From an uncultured Tateyamaria sp. (GTDB lineage Bacteria; Pseudomonadota; Alphaproteobacteria; Rhodobacterales; Rhodobacteraceae): a stretch of DNA of 64,000 nucleotides. Location: the NCBI RefSeq assembly GCF_947487805.1, contig NZ_CANKXW010000008.1, positions 1 through 64,000 of the forward strand. The letters run 5' to 3'. Below, piece after piece: positions 75-15,406 of this stretch. Both the position numbers and the translations under genes were made by a program. The notes beneath the pieces were generated by a model. That model was not told where the DNA came from. It saw only the letters and a list, made by a program, of their open reading frames with translations, and did not search any database. The first letter of the stretch is position 1, and each line of letters starts with the position of its first letter.

Positions 75-1022
75 TCACTCGCTCATAGGACGTTGGAAAG
101 ATCGCAGGCTTGGAAACAGGTATCGCCCGTTGCCATTGATACGCCGGAGATCATCAAGCAATGCGAGTGCCTGCTTTGGAAGCGGAACGCTATGGGGGCG
201 ACGCATCTTCATTCGTTCCGCTGGGATCGTCCAAACCGCGTTGGCGAAGTCAATTTCGATCCATTCTGCGTGACGCAATTCCCCCGGGCGCTGGGCAAGC
301 AATGCCTGCAACTGCAAAGCAATGCGCGTCGTCACCTGCCCTTCAAAACCGTCAAGCGCGCGCAGCAATGCCCCCAGCGCAACTTTTTCGGTGATCGCCG
401 CACGGGATTTAGGCTTTGGGCGGATCAACGCATCGTGCAACGGCTGCGCTGGGTCGAACTCAGCTATGCCACTGGCCACAGCAAGCCGAAACACTGCGCT
501 GATCTTAGCGCGTAGCCTTTGTGCTGTTTCATAGTTTCCTTTTGCTTCGACCTTGCGAAGGCAATCCAAGATCATTGGCGACTTGATGTCCGTGATCGCC
601 ATCTTACCAAAGTCGGCCTTGGCCATGTCCAAGAGCCAAGAGTTTTTGGTTTGCGTGGCTTTTGCACGCCCTTCCTGCCGCCCTTTATCCAAGAAGGCAT
701 CAGCTATTTTTTCAAATGTATGTTCTGAAACGGCGCGACGTGCTTGCTTTTCCGCCCGTTTTGCTGCGCCCGGGTCTATCCCTTTGGCCAGCAGGGCCTT
801 GGCACTTTCACGGGCCTCTCTTGCATCCGCTAACGAAACAGCAGGATACGCACCGAAGGATAATCTCTTTTCACGTCCCTCAAAGCGGTATTTCAATCGC
901 CAGAGCCGGGACCCGGTCCGCGTCACCTCGATGTACAAGCCGCCAGAGTCGCTGACCTTGTAGGTCTTTTCCTTCGATTTGAGGTTCCGAAGTTTTGCAT
1001 CGTTCAAAGACATTGGGGGCAT
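75..1022 (-). pseudogene. Truncated tyrosine integrase (P4-like, DUF4102 arm-binding domain)
   Basis: The 315 readable residues contain the N-terminal arm-DNA-binding domain of P4-type integrases (about residues 1-95, with the typical LSFGAYPAVSLADAREA stretch), a core-binding domain (about 100-200) and the start of the catalytic domain including the first catalytic Arg in LLAQRPGEL. The family is usually about 390-420 residues. The second box (HxxR), the distal His and the nucleophilic Tyr are all missing, because the frame stops right after RPMSE at what looks like an IS end. The start is the ATG at 1022 (MPPMSLNDAKLR). The gene reads away from att1 (1178), which suits an integrase of a third, further-left island using the same tRNA-Phe site. 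It should be inactive unless rescued in trans. Confidence 0.8.
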
Positions 1023-1043
1023 CCTACAATCAACCTATCCGAA

Positions 1044-1077
1044 CATGCCCCCAATCATGCCCCCAAGATGGGGGCAT
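1044..1077. repeat. TGGGGGCAT boxes upstream of the truncated integrase
   Basis: Two direct copies of CATGCCCCCAA (1044-1054 and 1056-1066) are followed by an inverted copy, ATGGGGGCAT (1068-1077). The integrase start codon region contains one more (CATTGGGGGCAT). Clustered boxes of this kind lie just upstream of many DUF4102 integrase genes; a role as arm-type binding or autoregulatory sites is inferred. Confidence 0.5.
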
Positions 1078-1120
1078 TCGGCTGGACGATAGAGATCCAC
1101 ATCGGACAACCAGAAGCACA

Positions 1121-1143
1121 AAAGCCCTTTGTTATTGGGCTTT
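1121..1143. terminator. Stem-loop with T-runs between integrase remnant and att1
   Basis: AAAGCCC (1121-1127) pairs perfectly with GGGCTTT (1137-1143) around a 9-nt loop, with A/T tracts on both sides. It looks like a short bidirectional intrinsic terminator. No gene clearly ends into it, so it may be a relic of island sequence. Confidence 0.4.
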
Positions 1144-1177
1144 ATCGTATGTAGTTGCTTACTTTCGGATGTTGAAG

Positions 1178-1222
1178 TGGTGCCCGGGGGCGGAATCGAA
1201 CCACCGACACGAGGATTTTCAA
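1178..1222. repeat. att1: 45-bp copy of the tRNA-Phe 3' end
   Basis: These 45 bp are identical to the 3' 45 nt of the intact tRNA-Phe gene at 33549-33593 and to a third copy at 17905-17949. Only the CCA end, T arm and part of the anticodon arm are present, so this is an attachment site and not a tRNA gene. It marks the left end of island A. Confidence 0.9.
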
Positions 1223-1336
1223 ACCGAAGCTTATTGATAAGGCCCAACAGGTTAGGTTCGGAAAACCTGTCAAACCCGCCACGACGCATCAAGCACTTAG
1301 CCGCGAATTGTCAAACCTTGACCCCGAGGCCATCCG

Positions 1337-2191
1337 ATGAGCTGGCGGGTGGCAAATGCTTGCGCCGAACGGAAGTTCGGGAGTGCGACGCGCAAGCAGA
1401 TCATCATGTTTCTGGCGGACAAGGCCTCGGATGATGGCTCGGGCATCTGGTGTTCCAAAGGAACGATCCAGCGGCACACCGAACTGGGCGAGACCACCGT
1501 CAAGCGCACGATCCGCGACTTCCTAAAGGAAGGCATCCTGGTCGAGACCGGCGCGCGCGGGTGCAAGAACGGATTCACGGTTGTCTACCGGATCGATCTG
1601 GCACGGATCGAGGCGCTGGAACTCACCGCAGAACCCGAGATTGAGACGGGGGCCACAGTGGACCCCGTCCAGACTGGACCCGGAACGGGGGCCACAGTGG
1701 CCGGGGTACCGGGGCCACCACGGCCCCCAAACCATCCTAAAACCATCCATAAACCTCCTACGCACGAGCGTGTGGTGGCGGAGGATGAAGAGGCTGAGAA
1801 GATATTGGCTGCGTATCCGCCCGACAGATTACGGGGCAAAGCGGTGTGCTTTGCCCAAATCGAAGACGCCGTGAAGGAAGGGATTGCACCGGAGGACTTG
1901 CTGAAAGCCGTCCAAGCCTACGCCACCGACAGCGCGGGATTCACCCGTTCCAAGGTCTGCTTTTCCGACAACTGGTTTCAGTCGAAGCGATGGCAGGCCT
2001 ATGTCGAGAGGCAGGCGGAAGACCGGGAGAAGGCGGCAGCGTTGCAGGCTGATCACCTTGCACGGCTGGCCTGCTGGATCAATGACCGCAGCCCGATGTG
2101 CAAGCACATCACGGCCCCGCAAGTCTCGGAATTACTCGCCTCAAAGCTGGTGACAGAGACGCAGATTCAAAGCGCAGGCCTCAGATCATGA
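1337..2191 (+). CDS. Winged-HTH protein, probable replication initiator (phage O-like) of the mobilizable island
   Basis: The 284-residue protein has an N-terminal winged helix-turn-helix (about residues 15-85; GSGIWCSKGTIQRHTELGET is the recognition region), like phage replisome-organizer and plasmid Rep proteins. A Gly/Pro/Thr-rich linker follows (about 105-140), then a charged helical C-terminal domain. The DNA encoding the linker contains direct repeats followed by an A-rich repeated tract, which recalls the origin embedded in the lambda O gene. The start ATG follows GAGG by a usable spacing. The stop overlaps the mobC start (ATGA). A replication role is inferred from the domain, the internal repeats and the linkage to mob genes; a purely regulatory HTH protein is the alternative. 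Confidence 0.6.
   Translation: MSWRVANACAERKFGSATRKQIIMFLADKASDDGSGIWCSKGTIQRHTELGETTVKRTIRDFLKEGILVETGARGCKNGFTVVYRIDLARIEALELTAEPEIETGATVDPVQTGPGTGATVAGVPGPPRPPNHPKTIHKPPTHERVVAEDEEAEKILAAYPPDRLRGKAVCFAQIEDAVKEGIAPEDLLKAVQAYATDSAGFTRSKVCFSDNWFQSKRWQAYVERQAEDREKAAALQADHLARLACWINDRSPMCKHITAPQVSELLASKLVTETQIQSAGLRS
1646..1748. repeat. Iteron-like repeats inside the HTH/rep gene (candidate origin)
   Basis: ACGGGGGCCACAGTGG occurs twice exactly (1646-1661, 1685-1700), with a degenerate third copy, GGGGCCACCACGG, at about 1711. AAACCATCC then occurs twice with 11-bp spacing (1729, 1740) before an A-rich TAAACCTCC. Repeats next to a more A+T-rich tract in the linker of a candidate initiator gene suggest a replication origin. 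The reading frame stays open throughout. Confidence 0.4.
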
Positions 2192-2661
2192 GCACCACCA
2201 GACCAACCGAAGCGCAAACAGCAAGGCGACCCATGTCATACGCTGGCGCTGCTGACACGGGACCTTGCGAGGGGCGGCACGCCTCCCCTTCGAACCCCAC
2301 CGGCGCGGGCAAAGCCCCCGCCAAAGAGCCGCTGACCGAGACCTTCGTCTTTCGCTGCACCGCGTCCGAGAAGGCCCAGTTGCGCGCCAAGGCAGAGGCC
2401 GCTGGACTGCCTGCTTCGACGGTCCTGCGCGAGGCGCTTGGCCTGACTGACGCGCGCCGCCGCAAGCCCATCCCCCGCGTTGATCCCGCGCTTGTGCTGG
2501 CTGTCGGGCGCATTGGCGGCAACCTCAACCAGATCGCGCGCTGGCTGAACCACGCCATGAAAGTTGGACGCACCGACCTCGACACGCTGACCGTCGCCCG
2601 CCGCCTCGTGGTGATCGAACGCCAGCTCGCCGCGCTCCTCGATGAGGCGCGGCGGTGCTGA
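2188..2661 (+). CDS. mobC: MobC-family relaxosome accessory protein
   Basis: The 157-residue protein has a disordered Pro/Ala-rich N-terminus, then a ribbon-helix-helix-like segment (FVFRCTASEKAQLRAKAEAA, about 55-75) and the hallmark C-terminal MobC stretch VGRIGGNLNQIARWLN (about 108-123). MobC proteins bind oriT and help the relaxase open the strands for conjugative mobilization. The ATG at 2188 overlaps the stop of the upstream HTH gene as ATGA, and the 3' end overlaps the relaxase start by 7 nt, indicating a translationally coupled operon. The ORF track begins further upstream, but that extension lies inside the previous gene and is not supported. Confidence 0.85.
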   Translation: MSTTRPTEAQTARRPMSYAGAADTGPCEGRHASPSNPTGAGKAPAKEPLTETFVFRCTASEKAQLRAKAEAAGLPASTVLREALGLTDARRRKPIPRVDPALVLAVGRIGGNLNQIARWLNHAMKVGRTDLDTLTVARRLVVIERQLAALLDEARRC

Positions 2662-4208
2662 TCAAGTTCTTTCCCAATGGCAAAGGCGCGGGCGCGGGGC
2701 CGGTCGGCTATCTCGTGGCCGAGCGCGTGCTGACCTACGATAGTAACCGCGACCTGATCCGCGATGCCGAAGGCCAGCCCGTGACCGTTAACCGCGACCC
2801 TCTGCCTGAGGTCCTGCGCGGGAACCCCGAGCGCACCGAGGCCCTGATTGACGCCAGCCGCCACCAATGGACCTACCGCGCGGGCGTGATCAGCTTTGCG
2901 GATAGCGATGATCCTTCCGAGGACCAGCAGGCCGAGGTCATGGACGGGTTCGAGCGGCTGGCCTTTGCGGGGCTGGACCCCGAGCAATATGAAGTGCTCT
3001 GGGTCCGCCATCGCCACGAAGGCCGGGTCGAGCTGCACTTCTGCACGCCGCGCCTTGAACTGACCACGGGAAAGAGCCTCAACATCGCGCCGCCGGGCTA
3101 CCAGGACGCCTATGACAGCCTGCGGGACGTCATGAACCGGCGTCATGGCTGGGCCGATCCGATGGATGTGGAGCGCGCGCAGGAGGTCCGCGACACCATT
3201 GAGACCCCGACACGCGCCCAAGGCCGGGACGAGCTGCACGCCTGGATACAGCACCAGATCGATATGGGCCTGATCACCAACCGCGCCACTATGGTCGACG
3301 CGCTCGCTGATGCGGGCTTCGACCTGCCGCGCACCGGCAAGGCCTACATCACCGCCCGCGATCCCGGCACCGGCGAGCGCTGGCGGCTGAAAGGAGAGAT
3401 TTTCCATGAAGACTGGCAAGCCGACCCGGCTGAGCGAGAAGCTGAACGCGGAGCTCGACACGATCCGGGCCGAGCACGTCGCCTCGATCTCATCCCAGCT
3501 CAAGAGCTTCAGGATCGATTTGAAGAACATTGTGGGCACCGCGCAGCATACCATCGCGAGCGATACGCGCAGCTTCCAGACCGAGACGGCGAGTTTGTTC
3601 GAGACACGGCTGAAATCGATCCGCCTCTGGCTGACGATCTCGCCTTGGCTGATCGCGGGGATGGTGTTGACGGGGATCGCCTTGATGATGGCCGCGAGCT
3701 TTTTCTGGACAGTGCATCTGACACGCTCGGAGCTGAACGAGATGGGCCTGACGCGGATCGAACGGCCCGAGGGGACGTGGCTGATCCTGGACCCGTTGAA
3801 GACGCGCCTGCGCACCTGCACGATGGGCGAGAGACACGTCACCTGCATTCGGATCGAGGAGAATTAGATGACCCAACTGACAGCCTTGGAACGCGACTTG
3901 CTCGCCTACGTCGAGCGGTTGGTGACGGCCTCCGAAGCCTCCGCGAAGGATTTGACCGCTTTGGAGACACGCTCGACCGGCAGGATCGAGAGGGAACTGG
4001 CTGGCTTGAAAGACTGCGTGACCTTGCTCATTCGTTCACAGACCGCATCCATGAAGGCCTTGAACGGATTGCTGAACGACGAGGCGAGCTACAAGACGCT
4101 GGACGAGAGCTTGCAGCAGAGCTTGACCTTAGCGAAAGCCGCCGCCGAGAGATTGAGGGACAGCTAGACAGCCAGGAAGCGCACGCGGAACGGGGGTTGC
4201 GGCATTGA
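2655..4208 (+). CDS. Relaxase / mobilization nuclease (MobA-like)
   Basis: The protein has 517 residues from a GTG start overlapping mobC. The N-terminal half is a VirD2/MobA-type relaxase domain. It opens with MLIKFFPNGKGAGAGPVGYL and has the histidine triad H119, H121 and H128 in HRHEGRVELHF, which would hold the metal for nicking at oriT. The catalytic Tyr is not obvious; Y23, Y28 and Y74 are candidates. Residues after about 250 are Asp/Arg-rich, low in complexity and probably disordered. That half also encodes two other genes in the +1 frame (3406-4167), which would explain its odd composition. No coupling protein or type IV secretion gene is visible, so the element should be mobilizable rather than self-transmissible. 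Confidence 0.85.
   Translation: MLIKFFPNGKGAGAGPVGYLVAERVLTYDSNRDLIRDAEGQPVTVNRDPLPEVLRGNPERTEALIDASRHQWTYRAGVISFADSDDPSEDQQAEVMDGFERLAFAGLDPEQYEVLWVRHRHEGRVELHFCTPRLELTTGKSLNIAPPGYQDAYDSLRDVMNRRHGWADPMDVERAQEVRDTIETPTRAQGRDELHAWIQHQIDMGLITNRATMVDALADAGFDLPRTGKAYITARDPGTGERWRLKGEIFHEDWQADPAEREAERGARHDPGRARRLDLIPAQELQDRFEEHCGHRAAYHRERYAQLPDRDGEFVRDTAEIDPPLADDLALADRGDGVDGDRLDDGRELFLDSASDTLGAERDGPDADRTARGDVADPGPVEDAPAHLHDGRETRHLHSDRGELDDPTDSLGTRLARLRRAVGDGLRSLREGFDRFGDTLDRQDREGTGWLERLRDLAHSFTDRIHEGLERIAERRGELQDAGRELAAELDLSESRRREIEGQLDSQEAHAERGLRH
3406..3867 (+). CDS. Nested mobilization protein with one membrane segment (MbeB-like position)
   Basis: The 153-residue ORF lies wholly inside the relaxase gene in the +1 frame. 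It has its own strong ribosome-binding site, AAGGAGA (3391-3397), spaced properly before ATG 3406. Its first 70 residues are a charged amphipathic helix, and a single transmembrane segment spans about 74-97 (WLTISPWLIAGMVLTGIALM). A short soluble tail follows. ColE1-type plasmids nest mbeB and mbeD inside the relaxase gene mbeA in just this way, with mbeB first. The match is to arrangement and properties; I do not claim clear sequence homology. The stop codon is directly followed by the next nested start. Confidence 0.7.
   Translation: MKTGKPTRLSEKLNAELDTIRAEHVASISSQLKSFRIDLKNIVGTAQHTIASDTRSFQTETASLFETRLKSIRLWLTISPWLIAGMVLTGIALMMAASFFWTVHLTRSELNEMGLTRIERPEGTWLILDPLKTRLRTCTMGERHVTCIRIEEN
3868..4167 (+). 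CDS. Second nested mobilization protein (MbeD/MobD-like)
   Basis: The 99-residue ORF sits inside the 3' part of the relaxase gene, in the same +1 frame as the preceding nested gene. It begins immediately after that gene's TAG and is preceded by GAGGAG (3856-3861). Its start, MTQLTALERDLLAYVERLV, follows the Leu/Glu-rich helical pattern at the N-terminus of MbeD/MobD proteins of ColE1 plasmids, which are small and coiled-coil. The rest is predicted helical, without cysteines or membrane segments. The role in mobilization is inferred from position, size and helical character. Confidence 0.65.
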   Translation: MTQLTALERDLLAYVERLVTASEASAKDLTALETRSTGRIERELAGLKDCVTLLIRSQTASMKALNGLLNDEASYKTLDESLQQSLTLAKAAAERLRDS

Positions 4209-4223
4209 GGGCAATGGCTTTGG

Positions 4224-5801
4224 TCATCTTCGCTTCGATTTCCGGCGTCTAGCAGCCTGCTTTCGTCGCTCTTTCCTGTTTGGCACTTCCATCCCGGCCA
4301 AGTCGGGACGAGTGAAGACGACTTGGGTCAGTTCAGGGTACTCGTCGTCGTCCACCGGTCGCATTTTCAGAGGGCTCTGCAAGATTCCAAGTTCCTTGCA
4401 GTTTTCTCTAATTCTCCTTCTATCTTCCGCCGTCCAATCGCTCTGCTCTGCGTAAATTAGGTCTTCTGATACGCCACGACCTTGCTCAGGTGGCTCCCGA
4501 GATATGCCCACAATCCGTTTCAGATGCGGATACCGCTCCAAAACCCCCTGAGCATAGATTGTCGCCCTCTCAGTACGTTTACGCCGATACTGCTCATACC
4601 CACCTTTTTTCTCCATCCAGTCCAGATATTTGAAGGTCATGATGAAAAAGGCGGTTTCGTTGTCTTTTGCCCCTTCTGGGGCAAGCATCATGCGAAAGAA
4701 TGCATCTTCGGTGATCCCTCGCTTGAGAGCTCCCATAATCGCTTCGCCATGGCTGCGCCTTCTGAACCGCATCTCGAGCGCCATATGCCGTACTGCAAGT
4801 TCATTTTTTGTGAGTTCGAAAGTGTGATCATCTATTGTTATCGAGGTGCCGCCGAGCATGTGATCTGTGAACAATGTTATGAATTTGTCCCAGACGTATG
4901 AGATTTTGTCCGCTTCCTTTTTTGCTAGGTACTGCGGATCAGAAACCCAGTTTGCGTAATGATCTCGTTCGATGGTTAATGGGGGTTCAGAGGCGTCGAC
5001 GACAAAATCGTGGTCACCGTCGTCGTTGATCCTGATGGCATAGTAGGCCAGCAAGTTTTCTTCGCCATGAGCCAACTTCAAGCGGCCAGATCGTACAAAC
5101 TCCTTTTTCTTTTCAAGGTAGTCTGTGAAGTCGCGAATCGTATCCAGTTCTTGCAAGATGATATCAAGTGAGACGTCATCAAGAACGTGTACGAACGAGC
5201 CCTCGGGGCTTACATCACCTATAGCGAACGGTTCGGATTTGCTTGGGTCCTTTGGCCAATTCATTTCACCTTTCAAACTAGGTTGGATCATGAGACTGCC
5301 AGAATGGCCCTCTCGGTGCTTTCTAAATGCATCCGAAGCACCGCGTGCGACGATTACATGATGAAATTTGCAGACGTTTGGCGACGGTAACTCTATGGGG
5401 AAAGGGTGTTTGCAGTTCCGATCTAGGAAAATCCGGTCGGGGTGCTCGGTTATCCATCGTTCCGCTCCTTTGGCTTGTTTTGCTGCCGCTGATACGGCGC
5501 GCTTGACCCATCGACCCCACGCGACAGACAGCTCCCCGGATGGCCAATCAATACTCTTTTCTGAGAAAATGATGATGTGATCACCGCACACAACTAGCAG
5601 GTCGCAAAGTTCTTTGCCGTCACCACGGCCATTGCCGCCAACTTTCTGATCTCTGTAGGGACTGGGATATGACCAGAGGTTCAAAAAGGTCTTGTCAGCG
5701 AGGTTAGCCAAGTACCTTTCACTTTCAGTGACACCCACTTCTTTGACTACTGGAGGGCGAAGCTGTTCCGGGCGCTCATCTATTCCAACGGGTTTCTTCA
5801 T
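4224..5801 (-). CDS. Uncharacterized protein with PD-(D/E)XK-like nuclease motif
   Basis: The 525-residue protein is not assigned to a named family. Near residues 60-85 the pattern GDGKELCDLLVVCGDHIIIF followed by SEK resembles the D...(D/E)xK core of restriction-type nucleases (acidic residue in a hydrophobic strand, then ExK in the next strand). Downstream are alpha-helical stretches, and the extreme C-terminus is a basic tail (NRKERRKQAARRRKSKRR). It is convergent with the relaxase operon and last on the minus strand after the toxin-antitoxin-like genes. Base composition is more A+T-rich than in its neighbours. A defence nuclease is the best guess given the location beside a restriction system. 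Confidence 0.55.
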   Translation of the reverse strand: MKKPVGIDERPEQLRPPVVKEVGVTESERYLANLADKTFLNLWSYPSPYRDQKVGGNGRGDGKELCDLLVVCGDHIIIFSEKSIDWPSGELSVAWGRWVKRAVSAAAKQAKGAERWITEHPDRIFLDRNCKHPFPIELPSPNVCKFHHVIVARGASDAFRKHREGHSGSLMIQPSLKGEMNWPKDPSKSEPFAIGDVSPEGSFVHVLDDVSLDIILQELDTIRDFTDYLEKKKEFVRSGRLKLAHGEENLLAYYAIRINDDGDHDFVVDASEPPLTIERDHYANWVSDPQYLAKKEADKISYVWDKFITLFTDHMLGGTSITIDDHTFELTKNELAVRHMALEMRFRRRSHGEAIMGALKRGITEDAFFRMMLAPEGAKDNETAFFIMTFKYLDWMEKKGGYEQYRRKRTERATIYAQGVLERYPHLKRIVGISREPPEQGRGVSEDLIYAEQSDWTAEDRRRIRENCKELGILQSPLKMRPVDDDEYPELTQVVFTRPDLAGMEVPNRKERRKQAARRRKSKRR

Positions 5802-5945: not shown

Positions 5946-6236
5946 CTAAGTTGCAACAAGCGGTTCAATGTTCGAAACATCGATCTCCTTCGCCGCAAGC
6001 GCCATGTCGTGGTTCGTCTGCAAGTTCACCCAGTAGGCCGGGGTCGTATTGAACACACGAGCCAGGCGTAGTGCCGTGTCAGGTGTGATCCCGGTCGTGC
6101 CCTTGATCAACCGCTCGATCCGCGTCCGAGGCACACCCAGACGCCGCGCAAATGCGATGGCCCCCATCTCCAGGGGATCAAGGTAAAGCTCTTTCAGGAC
6201 TTCACCGGGGTGCATCGGGTCTTCAAGCAGGCTCAT
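5946..6236 (-). CDS. HigA/VapI-family HTH antitoxin-like protein
   Basis: The 96-residue protein opens with LEDPMHPGEVLKELYLDPL, the signature of HigA/VapI-type XRE antitoxins. Its helix-turn-helix spans about residues 25-60 (FARRLGVPRTRIERLIKGTT), and AYWVNLQTNHDMALA is also typical. HigA normally pairs with a RelE-fold HigB encoded just upstream. Here the upstream gene (14 bp away) is a different HTH protein and no HigB is present, so this is an orphan antitoxin or a co-opted repressor in a three-gene operon. Confidence 0.8.
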   Translation of the reverse strand: MSLLEDPMHPGEVLKELYLDPLEMGAIAFARRLGVPRTRIERLIKGTTGITPDTALRLARVFNTTPAYWVNLQTNHDMALAAKEIDVSNIEPLVAT

Positions 6237-6250
6237 TGCCAGATACTTCC

Positions 6251-6838
6251 TCAGGCCGCGCCAGTTCGCGTTTCAGCGTTCATGCCATCGGCGTAGATGA
6301 ATTGCTTGGCATCCTCACGCACTTCGAGCGTCGCCCCATCAATCGCGCCAACGGCAAGGCCTGCGTTCACCCGCCGCGCAGGTTTCCCCGCACTCAGCCA
6401 CTTCCCCGCCTTGTCCACTGCAAAGCGCCCTTTGCGCGCTCCAGTGCCCTTGCCTTCAGCCGCGTCCATGATGACCAAAGCGACCTCTTCCATCCGAAAC
6501 AGCCCTCCCTGGCTGGCCGGGGGCATCTTGCGCTTTTGCAGGGATTGGCGCGAAACGTCCAACCGCTTGGCAACGTCGGCCAAGCTGACAAGGTCAGGCC
6601 GCACTTCCCGCAAAACCGAGCCCTCAGGCAATTGCTTTTGGATCGCACGCGCTGCATCCAGAATCGCATCTTCCGCGCGATGACTCGCCGCTTCCAGCGC
6701 AACGCCAAGCATGCCAGGCACGCCAGTACCGACGATGGCATCCTCGAAGCCAGCCTCGAAGACTGCGTCCACCAGATCGAACGCTTCATGTTCACCCTCA
6801 GGAAGGGCGAAGATCAGTTCAAACTCGATTTCTGCCAT
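6251..6838 (-). CDS. HTH protein, likely antitoxin partner of the upstream HicA-like gene
   Basis: The protein has 195 residues from the ATG at 6838, one base after the upstream stop; the longer ORF start overlaps that gene and is rejected. The N-terminal half (AEIEFELIFALPEGEHEAFD) looks like an alpha/beta domain, and a MerR/excisionase-like helix-turn-helix lies at about 105-145 (SLADVAKRLDVSRQSLQKRK). The coupling to a small HicA-like gene and the upstream palindrome suggest a type II antitoxin and autorepressor. This is an inference from organization, since the protein is larger than a usual HicB. Confidence 0.55.
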   Translation of the reverse strand: MAEIEFELIFALPEGEHEAFDLVDAVFEAGFEDAIVGTGVPGMLGVALEAASHRAEDAILDAARAIQKQLPEGSVLREVRPDLVSLADVAKRLDVSRQSLQKRKMPPASQGGLFRMEEVALVIMDAAEGKGTGARKGRFAVDKAGKWLSAGKPARRVNAGLAVGAIDGATLEVREDAKQFIYADGMNAETRTGAA

Positions 6839-6839
6839 A

Positions 6840-7118
6840 TTATTCATCCTCTTGCGGGCCATCGTTCGTGTCGTCGAGCTTGGTGCAACCAAGCGCCCGA
6901 CTTCTCAATTGCCGCGCGAAGCGGCCCGGATTTTGAGGCGTCGACCAGACGCCCATCTGACAAAACTCACCGCACCTACAGTCAGGATCGTTGTTCGGGC
7001 ATCGGATCAGGCCCCACGCATGTCCGCGCCCCGGACGTAAAGTGACGGTCCAACCCAGGGCCTCCAACTCGCGCAAGACCGCCTCAATCTCCTTGGACTT
7101 GTGCGGCTTTCTGGACAT
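6840..7118 (-). CDS. HicA-like toxin candidate
   Basis: The protein has 92 residues from the ATG at 7118, which follows GAAAGAGG on the minus strand. The TTG start of the ORF track (7154) would place the operator palindrome inside the gene and is less likely. The segment LEALGWTVTLRPGRGHAWG matches the HicA-type fold, a dsRBD-like toxin with a catalytic His in a Gly-rich turn. It is followed by a Cys-rich patch (RCPNNDPDCRCGEFC) in place of the usual ending. HicA proteins cleave mRNA. The Cys patch and the large partner set this pair apart from classical hicAB. Confidence 0.6.
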   Translation of the reverse strand: MSRKPHKSKEIEAVLRELEALGWTVTLRPGRGHAWGLIRCPNNDPDCRCGEFCQMGVWSTPQNPGRFARQLRSRALGCTKLDDTNDGPQEDE

Positions 7119-7137
7119 TAAATAGGCCTCTTTCTTT

Positions 7138-7157
7138 AAGTTGTCAATTGACAACTT
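7138..7157. promoter_or_regulatory. Perfect 20-bp palindrome, probable autoregulatory operator
   Basis: AAGTTGTCAATTGACAACTT is a perfect inverted repeat lying 20 bp upstream of the HicA-like start. It includes a TTGACA that could serve as a -35 box for minus-strand transcription. Autorepression by the toxin-antitoxin proteins through such a site is typical of type II systems. Confidence 0.65.
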
Positions 7158-7182
7158 AACATCACTTCGAGTCTTCCCTGTT

Positions 7183-10100
7183 TTATGCCGCTTGCGGCAT
7201 CTCTCGAGCTAGGACTTCAGCTTGCTTCACGACCTTTTTCACCGCCTCTGACTGCAAGTCTGGTGGGAAGCCGTGCTTACGCAGGATGCGCTTGATAACA
7301 ACACGCATCTTGGTTCGCACATTTTGCTTTCGCCACCAATCGACGGACGAGGTGCTCTGCACAGCATTCACAAGTTCCTGCGCTATCACGCGCAGCTCTT
7401 CGTTGCCCATCAGCTGCACCGCACTGTCGTTCTGAGCCAGAGCATCGTAGAAAGCGACCTCTTCAGCGGAAAGCCCATCTTCAGGCTGCGACTGAAGTTC
7501 CTTGGCCATCTCGATCATTTCTTGGATCACTTGAATCGCATCGATACTTCGGTTGTGGTACCGCGCCATCGCATCTTGAAGACGTTTGGAAAACGCTTCG
7601 TTCTGGGCTTTGTTGGTTCGGGTCCGCGAACTGATTTCACCGTTCAGCAGCTTCTTCAGAGCCTCAACCGCGAGGTTCTTATGGGGACTATTTTGTAGTC
7701 CCATTAAGAAGTCCTCACTCAGCACACTGAGGTCCGGCGCGTCCACGCCCGCAGCTTCGAGAATGTCGATCACTTCGGTCGAAGCGACAGCCCGATTGAG
7801 CAACTGAGCGATTGCCAGTTCTGCCTCCTCGGCCGTCCTGGCCTTACTCGACGAAGCATCCATTTTTCGTATTGCGGCTTGAACTGCGATGAAAAAGCCA
7901 ACTTCGTCTTTGACCTCCCGAGCGTCCGACGTTCCAGAAGCAATCCTGAAAGCTTTGACCAAGCCCGCAACCGCAGTCATGAAACGCTTCTTTGAGGCTT
8001 CGCGATCCTTGGGCTCTTGACCATCAATTTTGAGTGTCAACGCATGTTCGATAGCCGTGGGAAGCAAGCGAATTCTGTCCGCGGCGCTTCCTTTGACTGC
8101 CTCCATGTACGGAATGCCATGGAACATCGATCTCATGACGTCCAACTGCGTTAGCAACGCGTGGGCGGCCTCGCCTTGGTCTACGCCTGTCTGCTTCTGG
8201 TCGGCGTTCGAATAGTGCTTAAGAGCCTTCTTAAGGTCTGCCGCAAGACCAATGTAGTCCACAACAAGCCCAGAAGGTTTGGCCCCAAACACGCGATTGA
8301 TGCGTGTGATGGCCTGCATAAGACCGTGCCCCTTCATTGGCTTGTCCACGTACAGGGTGTGCATACAAGGCGCATCGAACCCCGTTAGCCACATGTCTCG
8401 CACTATCACCAGCTTCAGACCGTCTGACGCATCACGGTATCGGGTTCCAAGAGTTTCCAGACGAGCTTTTGACCTAATATGCGGCTGGAAGTCAGCAGGG
8501 TCTTGCGCAGCTCCGGTCATGACAACCTTTACTGCACCTGCACCATCTTCGTCCGAATGCCAGTCAGGTCGCGCCTCAGCGATCCGCTTGTACACCTCTA
8601 CGCAGATACGGCGTGACATGCAGACAATCATAGCTTTGCCGCCGTCCATTGCCTCTAGGCGTGCATCAAAATGCTCCAAGATATCCGCAACAACTGCGTC
8701 AAGACGCTTCTCGGAGCCAACCAGTTTTTCGATTTGCGTCCACTTGGTCGTCATGGAGCCTTTGGCGTCTTCGTCGAAAACGCCTCCATCCGCTTCGGCG
8801 TCTTCGATGATCTCATCGAATTCTGCGTCGAGCAGATCGCCGGCTTCCTCGCTCATCTCAATCTTCGCGACCCGGCCTTCATAGTAGATGGGTACGGTTG
8901 CCCCATCGGCGACAGCCTGGGCGATATCATAGACATCGATGTAGTCACCGAAGACCGCCTGCGTGTCCGCACCAACAAGAGAAATAGGTGTCCCCGTGAA
9001 GCCGACATGAACAGCATTTGGCAACGCGGTCCGCATATGATGCGCAAAGCCGTATTTGGTCTCACCAGTCTCCCGGTTCAGTTTTGCATCAAAACCGTAC
9101 TGCGAACGGTGCGCCTCATCCGCAAAGACGATGACATTCGAGCGGTCGGTCAATAGTCCGAAATCTGTCTGCCCTTTCTCCGGTCGAAACTTTTGGATCG
9201 TGGCAAAGATCACGCCCCCTACCTTGCGATCACCTAGCTTTTTTCGAAGATCTGGAACGTCCTCTGCCTGTACGGGCATTTCACCGAACAAGGCTGAGCA
9301 TCGCGAAAACGTTGCAAACAACTGATTGTCCAGATCGTTGCGGTCCGTGATGATCACCAAAGTCGGGTTTTCTAGCCTGGGGTCTCGCATCAAGCGGCCA
9401 CCGAGAAAGGCCATCAGCAAGGACTTGCCGGAACCCTGCGTGTGCCACATCACGCCGCCACGCCCATCGTTTCCACGGGCGCGGGCGACTGCGGCAACGC
9501 CTTTGCGCACAGCATGAAACTGATGATAACCCGCGATCTTCTTGATGGGGCCTTTGCCTTCATCCTCAAAGACGGTGCAAAACCGCAGCATGTCCATAAT
9601 GACGACCGGATCGAGAAGACCTTGAATGAGCGTTTGCAAAGCTAGGGCTGAGCCATCCTCGACCAGCGTGTCTCCATCGACCGTGCGCCAACGCATGAAA
9701 CGATCATAATTTGCGGAGAGTGAACCGAACCGCGCAGTCACACCTTCTGAAATGACATTGAATGCGTTTGTCCGGAACAGATCCGGAACCTGCGTCTTGT
9801 AGGTTTCGATCTGGTTGTAGGCCCCCTTGAGACTTCCGCTCTCGGTTCCTTTCAACTCGACCACGACGAGAGGAAGGCCGTTGAGGAAAAGGATGATATC
9901 GGGACGTCGTGCTGTCTGACCAACCACCTCAAATTGATTGACCGCCAACCAATCATTCTCCCGGTTTTCCCAATCGACCAAGCGCGCGATATCTGACCGT
10001 TCCGTGCCGCCCTCGAACCACGAGACAGGGACACCGGCCACAAGCACCTCATGGATGCGTCGGTTTTCCGACATTAGATCCCCGGCAAATTCAGTGTCGC

Positions 10101-10323
10101 GCACCTTGTTGAGTGCGGCCCGGATCGCGTCATCCGGTAGGTCTGGGTTCAGCCGCCGCAGGCTTTCGTCAAGACGTCCAAGGAGCAGCACCTCGCGAAA
10201 ACTCTCCCGCGCGGGCGCTTCATTCTCAGGCGACAGCTCTGAGCCATGCAGATAGGCAAAGCCCAAGCCCTGCAACTCTTCCAGCGCCCATTGTTCGAGA
10301 TCGTCTTCGGAAGCGAAAGCCAT
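7183..10323 (-). CDS. hsdR: Type I restriction enzyme, R (translocase/endonuclease) subunit
   Basis: The 1046-residue protein shows the full HsdR layout. An N-terminal PD-(D/E)XK nuclease domain has [20 protein letters not shown] at about 135-155. Two RecA-like superfamily 2 helicase domains follow, with Walker [14 protein letters not shown] at about 295, DEAH box [11 protein letters not shown] at about 405 and motif [13 protein letters not shown] at about 690. A helical C-terminal domain would bind the methylase. It cuts unmodified DNA after ATP-driven translocation. The ATG overlaps the upstream stop as TGATG, making this the last gene of a six-gene operon transcribed from hsdM. Confidence 0.95.
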
Positions 10324-11462
10324 CAGTCCACCTCCTCACCAAGCGACAGGTCAGGAATATCCAGACCATTCAGGCGTTCACCCAATACGTGTTCCAGTTT
10401 TTGGATATGCGAAGCCAACCAGCTCGCCATATCTGCCCAGGCGTCGCGGTTATATCCGTCAAACTCTTCCGAATAGACGATCAGGCTCTGCTTCTTGTCG
10501 TCCATCCGACGCCAGATCAATTCCGCCCCGAACTCAGCCTCAATCTGTTGTTTCTGTTCATACAACTGATCGAACAACCACTTGTTCTCCGCAGCATTCG
10601 CCCGCTCGAAACTCAACTGAACCCGCGCTTCCTTGCGCAGGAACACCAACTGAAATGGGCAAGACCGAACGCCAGAACCTGCACTCAACCAATGGCTTCT
10701 CGTTGGGCTGATGCTTCCGAAAAGCCCTGCACCATCTGCGCGCAGCTGATCCAGCGCCACCTCCCAGAAGTCGAGCCGCAACTTGTGACGCTTCTTCTGG
10801 GTGTCCTGAACCGCCTTCTCCTCGTTTTCCTTGCTCGACATCCCGATCATGAAATCCGCCGCTTCCGGCGTCGGGATGATCTGCTGGATGTCCACCATTA
10901 GCTCCTCGCCAAAGGAAAACGGCGTCACCTTGAAGCATTGCGCGCGAATGCCCCGGCTCAGAAGCCACAGCACCGTCGCCGTCACCTCACGCCGGAAATT
11001 GGCAGCGATAAAGATCATCCGCTGATCGTTGCCTGGGTTAAGGACGGTCTCCTCCAATTCCTCAACTTCCATGAACTCGCAAATCCGCACCGCCGCATTG
11101 CCGCCGCCCTCGTAGCGGTCGAGGTATTGCTGGTAGATGTCCACGATCTGCGTCTTGGTCAGGCCCGAGACATAGGCCGTGTATTTCAGCGCCTGCCAGG
11201 TCACATCCCGCCCGCTGTCATCGAGCTTGTTCTCGATCACAACCAGATTGCCGTCCTTGTCGAGCGCCAGAAGGTCCAGCCGCTCGCGCGTCTCGTCAAA
11301 CCCGTCGAACTCCTTCTGGATGATCAACAGCTCTTCCCCGAGCGCGTCGGGCTGGTTGGCCAACCATTCCTGCAAATGATCCCGCTCGCGCAGGTTCAGA
11401 TCAGCAAAGCGTTTCTGGACTAAGCGGGACAATCGGTTTTGGTTCAAATCAACGCGGAACAT
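10323..11462 (-). CDS. Accessory protein of the type I R-M operon (DUF4268-like, nuclease-fold N-terminus)
   Basis: The protein has 379 residues from the ATG at 11462 (the ORF track's extra Met is a TTG). The N-terminal region contains [20 protein letters not shown] at about 62-81, a clear D...ExK arrangement of PD-(D/E)XK folds as in NucS-like proteins. The C-terminal third ([28 protein letters not shown]) resembles DUF4268 proteins found beside restriction genes. Start and stop both overlap neighbours by TGATG, so it must be co-translated with hsdR and the preceding gene. It could restrain or assist restriction, or be an independent nuclease. Its function is not known. Confidence 0.7.
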
Positions 11463-12205
11463 CAATCACCTCTGAAATCGGAAAAATCTAAGATCGCGAC
11501 GCCAGCTAGGTCGCGCTGAAGAACATACTGCGACATGAAATCACGCTCGCGGATACGCTCGAAAACCTCACGTCTGTCCTGTGGCATTGAACGTTCCGCT
11601 CCACCAACATCAATGCCCAAGCCCGATTTGGCATCACATTTGCCAGAACTTGTGACCAGGCGATGCCACGGCTTCATATGCTTCTTGAGCTTGCTCAGAG
11701 CATTGGTTTTTTCCGCCTTAACTTTCTTGGCGCAGGCGACCGAGCAGCCCCAATAGCTTCGCCCGCGATAGGGATATTCGCCGCCGCCATGCAGTAGCTT
11801 GGAGTTTGAACCGTGGTCGTGGTTGAAGAAGACATATAGCGGGATGCAAGTCCCAGCATTCGCAATCAATTTGGCGGATTGGCCCGATGCCGGATCAAGG
11901 CCGCCATAGTCCGATCCTTTGCTGGAATGGTAGAGCCGCTTTGCCTGAACACGCAAACCCAGATCGCACCAAGGCGTGCGAACGATCCATTCCCAATCCG
12001 CGCCGTTGATGCCTTCCTCTGTCTTATTGAACATGGTCACGGTCAGTCCATGCTTGGCGTGATCGCGTGCCATGCGCAGCAAGAGCATTTCGGTGAGCGT
12101 CTCTTCCTGAAGGGCCAACCCACGTTTGAAAGCATGACCTTGCTCGTTCCAAACCCAAGCGGCTCGCCTGCGGAGATAGTCACGGAGAGTGATCGATGCA
12201 GCCAT
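11462..12205 (-). CDS. Accessory protein of the type I R-M operon with a candidate restriction-nuclease motif
   Basis: The protein has 247 residues from the ATG at 12205, which overlaps the previous stop as TGATG; the longer ORF runs back into that gene. The core GADWEWIVRTPWCDLGLRVQ followed by AKRL (about 67-91) fits a PD-(D/E)XK nuclease, with an acidic residue after Gly-Ala, Glu two residues later, and a Gln-Ala-Lys in the next strand. A Cys/Gly-rich middle follows (GGGEYPYRGRSYWGCSVACA). I do not recognise a named family with certainty (DUF6615 is a possibility). It is the second of three unusual genes between hsdS and hsdR. Confidence 0.55.
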   Translation of the reverse strand: MAASITLRDYLRRRAAWVWNEQGHAFKRGLALQEETLTEMLLLRMARDHAKHGLTVTMFNKTEEGINGADWEWIVRTPWCDLGLRVQAKRLYHSSKGSDYGGLDPASGQSAKLIANAGTCIPLYVFFNHDHGSNSKLLHGGGEYPYRGRSYWGCSVACAKKVKAEKTNALSKLKKHMKPWHRLVTSSGKCDAKSGLGIDVGGAERSMPQDRREVFERIRERDFMSQYVLQRDLAGVAILDFSDFRGD

Positions 12206-12666
12206 CACCAAACCTCGAACCGATCCATGGATCGCTTGCTCGCCGCCTCTGTCACAACCTGCCGCACGACCGCGCAGATGTCGTCGTCGCTGCGGGCGGG
12301 CATGTGGTCCTGGTCTTCGCAAACGCCGCAGCTGATCAGGACGGCTTCGGAATGGGGGAGTTCAGAGACCGTTCCGGCGACCATGCTGTCGAGGGTTTCT
12401 TCGAAACCATCGGAGAGCATGCCAGTGTCGCTATCGTATTTCTCTTGGTACCAGCACCACTCGTCCCAAACGGTTTTGAGCGGCTCTGCCGTGTCTTCAA
12501 ACATGCCTACGGCGGGCATCCGTTGCAGGCGGATGATGACGCGTTTGGCGAGCGCCTCGATGCGCTCGGCGGCAAAGACTTGGATGGGGTGGAAATAGTC
12601 CACCTCCGGGCCCGCCTCGGCCATCAGGAACGGGGCGGAGACGTCATAGGGTTTCGGTGCACTCAT
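12205..12666 (-). CDS. Uncharacterized protein in the type I R-M operon
   Basis: This 153-residue acidic protein has no motif I recognise. It contains several Trp/Tyr residues (KTVWDEWCWYQEKYDSDTGM) and a Cys pair (ISCGVCEDQDHM), with no membrane segment. Its ATG overlaps the hsdS stop as ATGA, and its stop overlaps the next start. The coupling makes a role linked to the restriction system likely; whether it is structural, regulatory or immunity-related cannot be told from sequence. Confidence 0.7.
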   Translation of the reverse strand: MSAPKPYDVSAPFLMAEAGPEVDYFHPIQVFAAERIEALAKRVIIRLQRMPAVGMFEDTAEPLKTVWDEWCWYQEKYDSDTGMLSDGFEETLDSMVAGTVSELPHSEAVLISCGVCEDQDHMPARSDDDICAVVRQVVTEAASKRSMDRFEVW

Positions 12667-13883
12667 AACATCGCCTCCACTTCCGCCTCAGCGGCTTTGA
12701 CGCGCAGGGTGCCGGACATGAGGCGGGGCAGCAGGGTGTCGCGGAGGGTGGCGAGGGTTTGGTTTTCCTTCGTTAGCTCAAGAACCTTTCGAAACATCGG
12801 ATCGACGATGCTTTCGAACGCAGCAGATACAGAACGAGGCGGCGAAACGACCGTGGCAGCTTGGAGTGTCTTGGTTGTTATGGTGTCAAAAACAGAACCA
12901 TGCGCTGCAAGCGTTATGCCCAATATTTCCGTCATGAACATGCAATTTGCGAAGAATGGTTTGCCCTCTCTGGAATTCAACGCATAGCAAGTTTGGTTCA
13001 TCGCGATCTGCTCTCCAAACATGCACGCACGGCCAGTGGTTGCGCCACGCGCGACAACAACTGTGGCGTACTTTGGGATCAGTTTCGTACTGCTCTTGGA
13101 CAGCCCCAGCTCGGTAATTCTGCGCTCTGTGGAAATCAAAAACGCTTGGCCGCATTGGCTTACATCTTTGGCGCTAGCCCATGGAATATAGCCGTCCCAA
13201 TAGTCCTCGATCGAAGTTTTTGGCGTCCCACCGGAGATAAGCTCTACGACCTCCAAAAGAGCTTTTTCTCCCCACCCCTCCGGCAGGCCGTTTTCGCCGA
13301 AGCGGTCGGGGAAGAGAGCGGCGGTTTCGGGGGCCATGTGGGCGGGGGGACGGTTTTGGGATTTGGCGTGGACGGGGTCGAACGTGACGAACCACGACCG
13401 ATAGAGCGCCCGCGCCATCTCTTCCAGGCAGGCCGAGGCCTTCCGGTTCGCCTCGATCTTGTCATCCAGCGCCCCCAATATCCCCGCAATCTCGCGTTGT
13501 TCTGGAAGTGGTGGCAAGACCACTGCTTCTTGGTGAGCATCGTTTCGGTTAACGCCAGGAACACCGCTCTTGTCGTTGAATTTTTCCCAATCCAAGGTCT
13601 GCAGAAAGTAGTAGCAAAACTTCGGATCATTCCCTTTGAAATCGCGGACGTACAGCGCAGTGTTCAAAGGCCAAAAGTCACTTTCAGAGAAGAAAACTTG
13701 GCCGATCGTTCCATAGCGACCTGTTATTACACCCGGCCCATTGACCTTTGCCTCTGAGTGAAGATCAGTTGGTCCAGACGAAGAAATTATTGGGACATCG
13801 CCGGGCTTGCGCTTGGCATGCGGCAAGTCATAACCACGTTTCAGCTCCAGCACGTCGCCCAGTTCAACGTCGGCCCAGCTCAC
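12663..13883 (-). CDS. hsdS: Type I restriction enzyme, S (specificity) subunit
   Basis: The protein has 406 residues from a GTG at 13883 that overlaps the hsdM stop as GTGA; the ORF track's earlier start is also a GTG. It has two target-recognition domains separated by long conserved helices. The first domain (about 1-125) ends in VLPPLPEQREIAGILGALDD, the classic HsdS helix start. The second (about 195-360) ends in a matching helix near FRKVLELTKENQTLATLRDT. HsdS sets the bipartite DNA target for methylation and restriction. The target itself cannot be read from sequence. Confidence 0.93.
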   Translation of the reverse strand: MSWADVELGDVLELKRGYDLPHAKRKPGDVPIISSSGPTDLHSEAKVNGPGVITGRYGTIGQVFFSESDFWPLNTALYVRDFKGNDPKFCYYFLQTLDWEKFNDKSGVPGVNRNDAHQEAVVLPPLPEQREIAGILGALDDKIEANRKASACLEEMARALYRSWFVTFDPVHAKSQNRPPAHMAPETAALFPDRFGENGLPEGWGEKALLEVVELISGGTPKTSIEDYWDGYIPWASAKDVSQCGQAFLISTERRITELGLSKSSTKLIPKYATVVVARGATTGRACMFGEQIAMNQTCYALNSREGKPFFANCMFMTEILGITLAAHGSVFDTITTKTLQAATVVSPPRSVSAAFESIVDPMFRKVLELTKENQTLATLRDTLLPRLMSGTLRVKAAEAEVEAML

Positions 13884-15406
13884 ACCAAGCCCCCCAACCA
13901 CGCCTCGATCTCGGTCTCCAGCCGTCGGCCTTCCTCGAAATGCCCCTGCAACTCGGCCCGCAGCCGCGTAAATTTTTCCTCAAACGGCTCGTCGTCCTCT
14001 TCCACCGCGCCCGCGCCCACGTAGCGGCCCGGGGTCAGCACGTAGTTGTGCTTGGCAATCTCCTCGACCTTCACGCTTGCGCAGAAGCCCGGCTCGTCTG
14101 CGTAAGGCCCCTCTGCCTCCTCCCCCCGCCAGGCATGGTAGGTGGTGGCGATCTTGGCGATCTCGTCCTCTGACAGTTCCTTTTGCTTGCGCGACCCTGC
14201 GATCAGCGCGCCCATCTTGCGGGCGTCGATGAACAGCACCTCGCCGCGCCGGTCGCGAAGCGTGCCGCCCGCCGCCGTGCCGTTGGATTTGTCCTTTGCC
14301 AGAAACCACAGGCAGGCGGGGATCTGTGTGCCAAAGAACAACTGTCCCGGCAGCGCCACCATGCAATCCACCGCGTCCTGTTCGACCATCGCCTTTCGAA
14401 TGTCGCCCTCGCCCGATTGCATGGACGACATCGACCCGTTAGCCATGACCACCCCTCCAATGCCGTTGGCGCTGAGGTGGTGGTGGATATGGGACATCCA
14501 AGCAAAGTTCGCATTGCCCGTCGGCGGCGTGCCATAGCGCCAGCGCGTGTCCTCGCGTAGCGCCTCGCCGTTCCAGTCCGAGATGTTGAAAGGCGGGTTG
14601 GCGAGGATAAAGTCAAACCGTTCATCCGGGAAGGCGTTGCGGGTCAGCGTGCCCTCCTGGTTCCAGCGCAGATCGCCAAAGATGCCCCGGATGGCAAGGT
14701 TCATGCGGGCGAGGCGAAAGGTCGTGTGGTTGCGTTCTTGCCCATAGACCGCGATGTCATCGACCCGGCCTTGGTGGGCGGCGATGAATTTCTCGGACTG
14801 GACGAAGAAGCCTCCGGTGCCGCAGCAGGGGTCATAGACGCGGCCATGGGTCGGCTCCATCATCTCAACCATGACCGAGACGATAGATTTAGGCGTATAG
14901 AACTCCCCGCCGCGCTTGCCCTCGGACGAGGCGAATTCCCCAATGAAGTATTCGTAGATGCGCCCGATCAGGTCGAAGTCGGATTTGGTACCGTGCAGTT
15001 CGAGGTTGGTGAACATCTCGATCAGGCCGGTGACGATGGCCCGGTCGAGGTTGGCGCGGCCAAAGACCTTTGGCAGCGCGTCTTGCAGCGAGGGGTTCGA
15101 TTTCTCAATCTCGCGCATGGCGTCGTCCACCTGCACGCCTATGTCGTTTGCTTTGGCATTGGCGGCGAGCCGATCCCAGCGGGCTTTTTCGGGCACCCAG
15201 AAGATGTTTTCGGCCTCGTATTCTTCGGGGTCTTCGAGGTCGATGTATTCATCCTTGGCGAATTCGGCCCGCTTGGCTTCGAACGCGGCAGAGACATAAC
15301 GGAGGAAGAGAAGGCCCAGGGCAACGTGTTTGTATTCGCCCGCGTCCATCGCCCCGCGCATCTTGTCAGCGGCGGCGAAGAGGGTCTTTTCAATGCGTTC
15401 TGCCAT
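13880..15406 (-). CDS. hsdM: Type I restriction enzyme, M (adenine methyltransferase) subunit
   Basis: The 508-residue protein has the HsdM N-terminal helical domain (MAERIEKTLFAAADKMRGAM), the SAM-binding motif YDPCCGTGGFFVQSEKF (about 195) and the catalytic motif IV ILANPPFNISDW (about 270), which predicts N6-adenine methylation. Its length is normal. It is the first gene of the hsd operon, 35 bp downstream of a small membrane-protein gene. Two copies with one HsdS would form the modification complex protecting host DNA. Confidence 0.95.
   Translation of the reverse strand: MAERIEKTLFAAADKMRGAMDAGEYKHVALGLLFLRYVSAAFEAKRAEFAKDEYIDLEDPEEYEAENIFWVPEKARWDRLAANAKANDIGVQVDDAMREIEKSNPSLQDALPKVFGRANLDRAIVTGLIEMFTNLELHGTKSDFDLIGRIYEYFIGEFASSEGKRGGEFYTPKSIVSVMVEMMEPTHGRVYDPCCGTGGFFVQSEKFIAAHQGRVDDIAVYGQERNHTTFRLARMNLAIRGIFGDLRWNQEGTLTRNAFPDERFDFILANPPFNISDWNGEALREDTRWRYGTPPTGNANFAWMSHIHHHLSANGIGGVVMANGSMSSMQSGEGDIRKAMVEQDAVDCMVALPGQLFFGTQIPACLWFLAKDKSNGTAAGGTLRDRRGEVLFIDARKMGALIAGSRKQKELSEDEIAKIATTYHAWRGEEAEGPYADEPGFCASVKVEEIAKHNYVLTPGRYVGAGAVEEDDEPFEEKFTRLRAELQGHFEEGRRLETEIEAWLGGLV

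Follow-up and report, generated by a model that had tools for sequence, protein, structure and literature searches.

Anti-addiction antitoxins are solitary antitoxins that protect from a related toxin–antitoxin (TA) element. In E. coli hicAB, the transcript from the P2 promoter yields HicB and not HicA, the strand order of the latter having been described as helix-strand-strand-strand-helix (PMC10865869). The PADLOC defence candidates (PDCs) were identified by screening for 'guilt by embedding', and the majority await validation (PMC12988326). For one of these candidates, PDC-M06, a search of the literature other than the source preprint retrieved no published or experimental description. Here we relate these systems to three consecutive genes, A, B and C (Table 1), located in a stretch of 64,000 nucleotides from an uncultured Tateyamaria sp., hereafter the window. 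The first-pass annotation had described three genes with 1–14 bp gaps behind a perfect palindrome, an arrangement that the ORF coordinates bear out (1 bp between A and B, 14 bp between B and C). The TTG at 7154 given as the start of A in the ORF list represents an upstream extension, and the family alignment fits the ATG.

Table 1. Features of the A–B–C locus; positions are those of the window.
Feature	Position	Strand	Remarks
Gene A, putative toxin	6840-7118	minus	92 aa, ATG at 7118; HicA-like topology; PDC-M06A
Gene B, putative antitoxin/autorepressor	6251-6838	minus	195 aa from ATG at 6838; ferredoxin-like domain and HTH; PDC-M06B
Gene C, orphan HigA antitoxin, intact, predicted captured add-on	5946-6236	minus	96 aa; TIGR02607
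Palindromic operator (candidate)	7136-7159	none	24 bp, perfect; core TTGTCAATTGACAA at 7141-7154; gene-proximal half contains consensus -35 TTGACA
-10-like sequence (predicted)	7116-7124	minus	TATTTA (spacer 17) or TTTAAT (spacer 19); abuts or overlaps the gene A start codon; transcription from such a promoter would begin inside A
HsdR of the type I R-M operon	7183-10323	minus	ends 64 bp before the gene A start codon

The genes lie behind a type I restriction-modification (R-M) cluster (HsdM 13880-15406, HsdS 12663-13901, and HsdR as in Table 1), in an island that also carries integrase and mobilisation genes; read-through from hsdR is a possible source of gene A transcription. Type I R-M genes are likewise found upstream in three other loci with C and in one without it, the HsdR proteins being ~30% identical where measured. 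Between hsdS and hsdR (10323-12666) are genes for a DUF4268 protein matching PDC-S11 (E = 6e-172), a DUF6615 protein and an unnamed 153-aa ORF. The 525-aa gene downstream of C (4224-5801, minus strand) matches phrog_18195, a group of unknown function (E = 1e-60), and has no Pfam, NCBIfam or PADLOC match. Further on, 75-4208 belongs to a mobilisable island and holds the integrase (75-1022, with a partial match to the C-terminal catalytic domain) alongside genes resembling NikA/MobC and relaxases.

The A–B pair and its relation to PDC-M06

Gene A matches PDC-M06A (E = 3e-29, residues 1-83) and gene B matches PDC-M06B (E = 4e-24, residues 1-103 of 195), as do all homologues compared (52/52 for A and 56/56 for B). 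A and B together make up a single unit, the two-gene PADLOC phage-defence candidate PDC-M06. The initial statement that the genes correspond to no standard type II pair holds for the named TA families, but has to be amended in view of PDC-M06. Pfam, NCBIfam and PDB sequence searches with A and B gave nothing convincing besides weak HTH matches. Among the B homologues, eight have weak matches to PADLOC mad1 (from the MADS system), and a model for type I methyltransferases is matched by one (E = 2e-8).

We followed the pair in an order-wide sample of 296 genomes and in a separate set of 68 further contig loci from named genomes and viral contigs. Gene A occurs in 13 of the 296 genomes, one match being weak, and the 12 strong gene B matches of the order-wide profile search come from the same 12 genomes as the 12 strong gene A matches. 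Among the contig loci, B directly follows A on the same strand in 67 of 68, the sole exception being cut by a contig end, and A and B are also adjacent in most of the distant relatives, which come from beta- and gammaproteobacteria, from plasmids of cyanobacteria and from Escherichia phage Cyrano. The neighbourhood check proposed along with the idea of one three-gene operon-like module upheld A–B as the conserved unit and not C, which also lies there in only 4 of the 68 loci and is an add-on in five loci, namely the window and four close relatives.

The settings of the pair are unrelated, ranging from type I R-M islands and conjugative plasmids to cyanobacterial plasmids and a phage. In 28 of 68 loci, genes for conjugation are found no more than 9 kb away, and on annotated plasmids type IV secretion genes flank the pair on one side and relaxase genes on the other; addiction and defence roles both fit this context. 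In phage Cyrano (L128, 1998-2846) A–B lies between replication genes and is preceded by the second operator form described below; here a phage carries a copy of a defence candidate.

A and B are both intact in 92 loci; in seven a broken A accompanies an intact B, and in one an intact A accompanies an incomplete B, although some of the breaks may be sequencing errors, three of them lying in one assembly. Loss of A with retention of B, and hardly the reverse, is the asymmetry expected of a candidate toxin and its antitoxin. In the single locus with an intact A and an incomplete B (L126, 5001-5529, on a planctomycete plasmid), B is a 96-aa protein comprising the N-terminal domain alone, hinting that the ferredoxin-like domain is the neutralising one. 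The pair thus displays type II TA features: two adjacent small genes, an operator upstream and a putative toxin rarely kept without its antitoxin.

Structure models were built from alignments without the rows from plasmid and phage records. The gene A model is of middling confidence (pLDDT 74) and has an alpha-beta-beta-beta-alpha order; H33, T60, P61, A68 and C78 are invariant in all 52 A sequences. In a viral fold library, a few phage proteins named HicA-like match A with low to moderate confidence (probability 0.3–0.9), and a PDB fold search with the same model gave no significant match. The PADLOC 'HicA-like' model is matched by 2 of the 52 A members, and the depositors of phage Cyrano named its A–B pair HicA/HicB. 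The Pfam HicA family (PF07927) has no match among the 52 members at E ≤ 1, and hhalign aligned A with HicA at a probability of 20% over 15 columns. Homology of A to HicA was unsupported by hhalign in three modes, and likewise when the comparison was restricted to Cys-poor members. The description of A as 'HicA-like' is based on predicted strand order, a conserved His and weak phage fold matches, the Pfam and profile–profile comparisons being negative; from the strand order, the invariant H33 and the phage fold matches we consider that A plausibly works like HicA, while membership in that family is unsupported by any sequence method. The 'unusual Cys patch' is real (C40, C47, C49 and C53) but is lost in divergent members, on which ground we rejected it as essential to A.

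The gene B model (pLDDT 92) shows a beta-alpha-beta-beta-alpha-beta domain, then an HTH, and a helical tail at the end. The nearest solved folds include ferredoxin/ACT/PII-like proteins, none below E = 0.001; the domain is ferredoxin-like and does not have the partial RNase H fold of HicB. As a phage family named 'excisionase and transcriptional regulator' is matched by the N-terminal half of B (E = 4e-6), whose domain is similar to the ligand-sensing ACT/PII folds, and as 28 of 68 loci have conjugation genes nearby, A and B might be a regulator of transcription with a small accessory partner (e.g. an anti-repressor or a nucleic-acid-binding protein) that control their carrier element rather than a TA pair. 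We consider this unlikely, given that the genome has one operator and hence no regulon here, that the pair occurs in unrelated contexts, and that A is lost while B is kept. A and B are best read as TA-like.

Operator and predicted promoter

Upstream of A, 17 bp from its ATG, lies the palindrome TTAAGTTGTCAA/TTGACAACTTAA. It had been reported as perfect over 20 bp; it is indeed perfect, but over 24 bp, a length expected ~0.004 times per 64 kb if bases were equally frequent and independent. Its 14-bp core, TTGTCN4GACAA, has no second copy in the genome of 4.14 Mb, also when one mismatch is tolerated. This site or a related inverted repeat precedes A in 85 of 90 loci, including loci without C: TTGTCN4GACAA in 78 (once with a single change) and the related TTGACN4GTYAA in seven more (L110, L112-L116 and L128), five of which the automated labels put in the first class. 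Both forms are missing in the remaining 5 of 90, among which L028 differs by one base. The second form belongs to the most divergent members and goes with a different HTH type in B wherever the HTH could be compared.

Since the site is kept where C is absent, C-type HigAs have another operator and the genome contains a single copy, the likely reader of the palindrome is B and not C. We rejected C as reader because it is absent from most loci and its native operator differs, and we rejected a host regulon site because the genome has a single such site.

A TTGACA box lies in the operator half nearer to the gene, and a -10-like hexamer is enriched 15–19 bp from it: the mean best score is 3.92, with at least four of six positions matching in 27 of 36 clusters. 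Comparison windows not overlapping the 15–19 bp range reached mean scores of 2.3–2.9 and at least four of six in at most 8 of 36. The -10-like signal lies in an AT-rich stretch of the kind that often precedes start codons. Because TTGACA is inside the palindrome, its conservation may reflect repressor binding only. In the window TTGACA is perfect, TATTTA matches at three of six positions, and TTTAAT matches at five of six but at the 19-bp spacer; a strict generic promoter scan called no promoter there, so that the promoter reading rests on comparison across loci.

In all 67 sequences with TTGACA, the predicted transcription start falls at -11 to +8 relative to the first base of the A start codon, and in 47 of the 67 it falls at or past that base. 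Of the 48 recognisable Shine-Dalgarno motifs of A, 46 begin upstream of the predicted start. Transcription beginning at the 5' end of A, or within it, would give a transcript lacking the ribosome-binding site of A, from which mainly B would be made. By analogy with P2 of E. coli hicAB, we infer that the operator promoter is antitoxin-only. Leaderless translation of A we thought unlikely, as a GTG or TTG start codon is common among the members and a Shine-Dalgarno motif is retained in them.

Gene C and its HigA relatives

Gene C matches the HigA model TIGR02607 at 94.6 bits against a cut-off of 47.7. Relatives at 92–98% identity are present in nine genomes; in eight the gene immediately follows an intact higB, and in the ninth (L166) no higB is seen next to it. 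The cognate HigB of these relatives has no match anywhere in the genome of the window, and none was found in three other A–B–C genomes apart from one marginal match (E = 0.05); the same query found HigB in two control genomes. The native operator of C-type HigAs, TGTATCN7GATACA upstream of higB, is absent near gene A and from this genome. A genome without that HigB and without its operator identifies C, at the level of sequence, as a separate, captured orphan HigA, and the match to TIGR02607 together with the missing HigB vindicates the 'orphan HigA-type antitoxin' of the first-pass annotation. Between B and C, a stop and ribosome-binding segment of the TGA-GAG type has been retained that is similar to the one joining higB and higA. 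In the gene C tree, support was too weak to tell single from repeated capture.

A single three-component TA system, in which C would help to neutralise or regulate A, would account for the common strand, the 14-bp gap and the same position of C in five related loci. We regard it as very improbable: C is absent from 64 of 68 loci and the operator is conserved without it, C is closest to HigAs paired with HigB while its ancestral operator is missing, and its C-terminus is truncated or altered in L028, L031 and L043.

Taking C as a captured HigA, it is perhaps an anti-addiction antidote. The competing explanation of C itself is a functionless passenger, a decaying remnant of recombination with a higBA locus; the altered C-termini in the same three loci and the loss of cognate toxin and operator would agree with decay, whereas the copy in the window is full length, nearly identical to the HigAs of intact loci, and keeps a ribosome-binding site in the B–C gap. 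We lean slightly against the passenger and narrowly prefer the antidote.

Proposed circuit and comparison with known systems

Drawing on gene order, conservation of the pair and of its operator, promoter geometry and the kinship of C, we propose a model in which toxicity, neutralisation, DNA binding, antitoxin-only expression and a defence or addiction role are all inferred. A would act as the toxin, plausibly as a small RNase whose fold is HicA/dsRBD-like and which uses the invariant His33, and would be neutralised by B, probably via its N-terminal ferredoxin-like domain. The HTH of B would bind the 24-bp palindrome and repress the promoter embedded there, whose transcripts would mostly lack the A ribosome-binding site and yield mainly B, while A would be supplied by transcripts from further upstream, in the window probably hsdR read-through. 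If free B were lost, e.g. because a phage infection or loss of the element had halted its production, A would be freed, and derepression would refill B first. C would stand outside the A–B circuit as a HigA captured with its translation-initiation region behind B, perhaps as an antidote to incoming HigBA elements. We consider this model as a whole, a PDC-M06-type TA pair with B as autorepressor on the palindrome, an antitoxin-only promoter and C outside the circuit, fairly probable. It provides a testable circuit for a catalogued defence candidate, specifying the reader of the operator, why derepression spares overproduction of the toxin, and the neutralising domain.

With PDC-M06 the locus shares matches that span most of A and, in B, its first half, and the type I R-M operon alongside the pair is as expected for 'guilt by embedding' candidates (PMC12988326); it differs in having the extra gene C and in lying downstream of hsdR and not inside the operon. 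RptR (PMC12255303) resembles B, as predicted here, in being a small regulator that binds DNA and is linked with type I R-M islands, but it represses the R-M island promoter via TAGCTA sites, whereas B goes with its own gene pair and is mostly found away from R-M. HigBA is related through C, by both TIGR02607 and near-identity to higBA-borne HigAs, yet this genome has neither HigB nor the HigA operator. C resembles anti-addiction antitoxins in being an orphan in a mobile-element setting with the cognate TA in the same bacterial family; if true, the capture of a foreign antitoxin by such a locus would clearly exemplify competition between TA elements by way of antidotes.

Finally, E. coli hicAB (Gerdes classes 3/4) shares with A–B a small first gene with predicted alpha-beta-beta-beta-alpha order and a conserved His, a second gene with an HTH, a palindromic operator, and a promoter placed, by prediction here, such that the toxin would go untranslated. 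In contrast, A has no sequence link to HicA, and A–B is not among the 14 HicA contexts in PMC10865869. More broadly, and as a proposal that we regard as rather doubtful, A–B may represent a widespread TA family combining a HicA-resembling toxin with a ferredoxin-like/HTH antitoxin, its antitoxin-only operator-promoter kept from cyanobacteria to proteobacteria and a phage, and a HigA captured in one lineage exactly downstream of the family's own antitoxin, as antidote to rival addiction elements. If true, an antitoxin-only promoter associated with a non-HicB antitoxin would suggest convergence on the solution found by E. coli hicAB.
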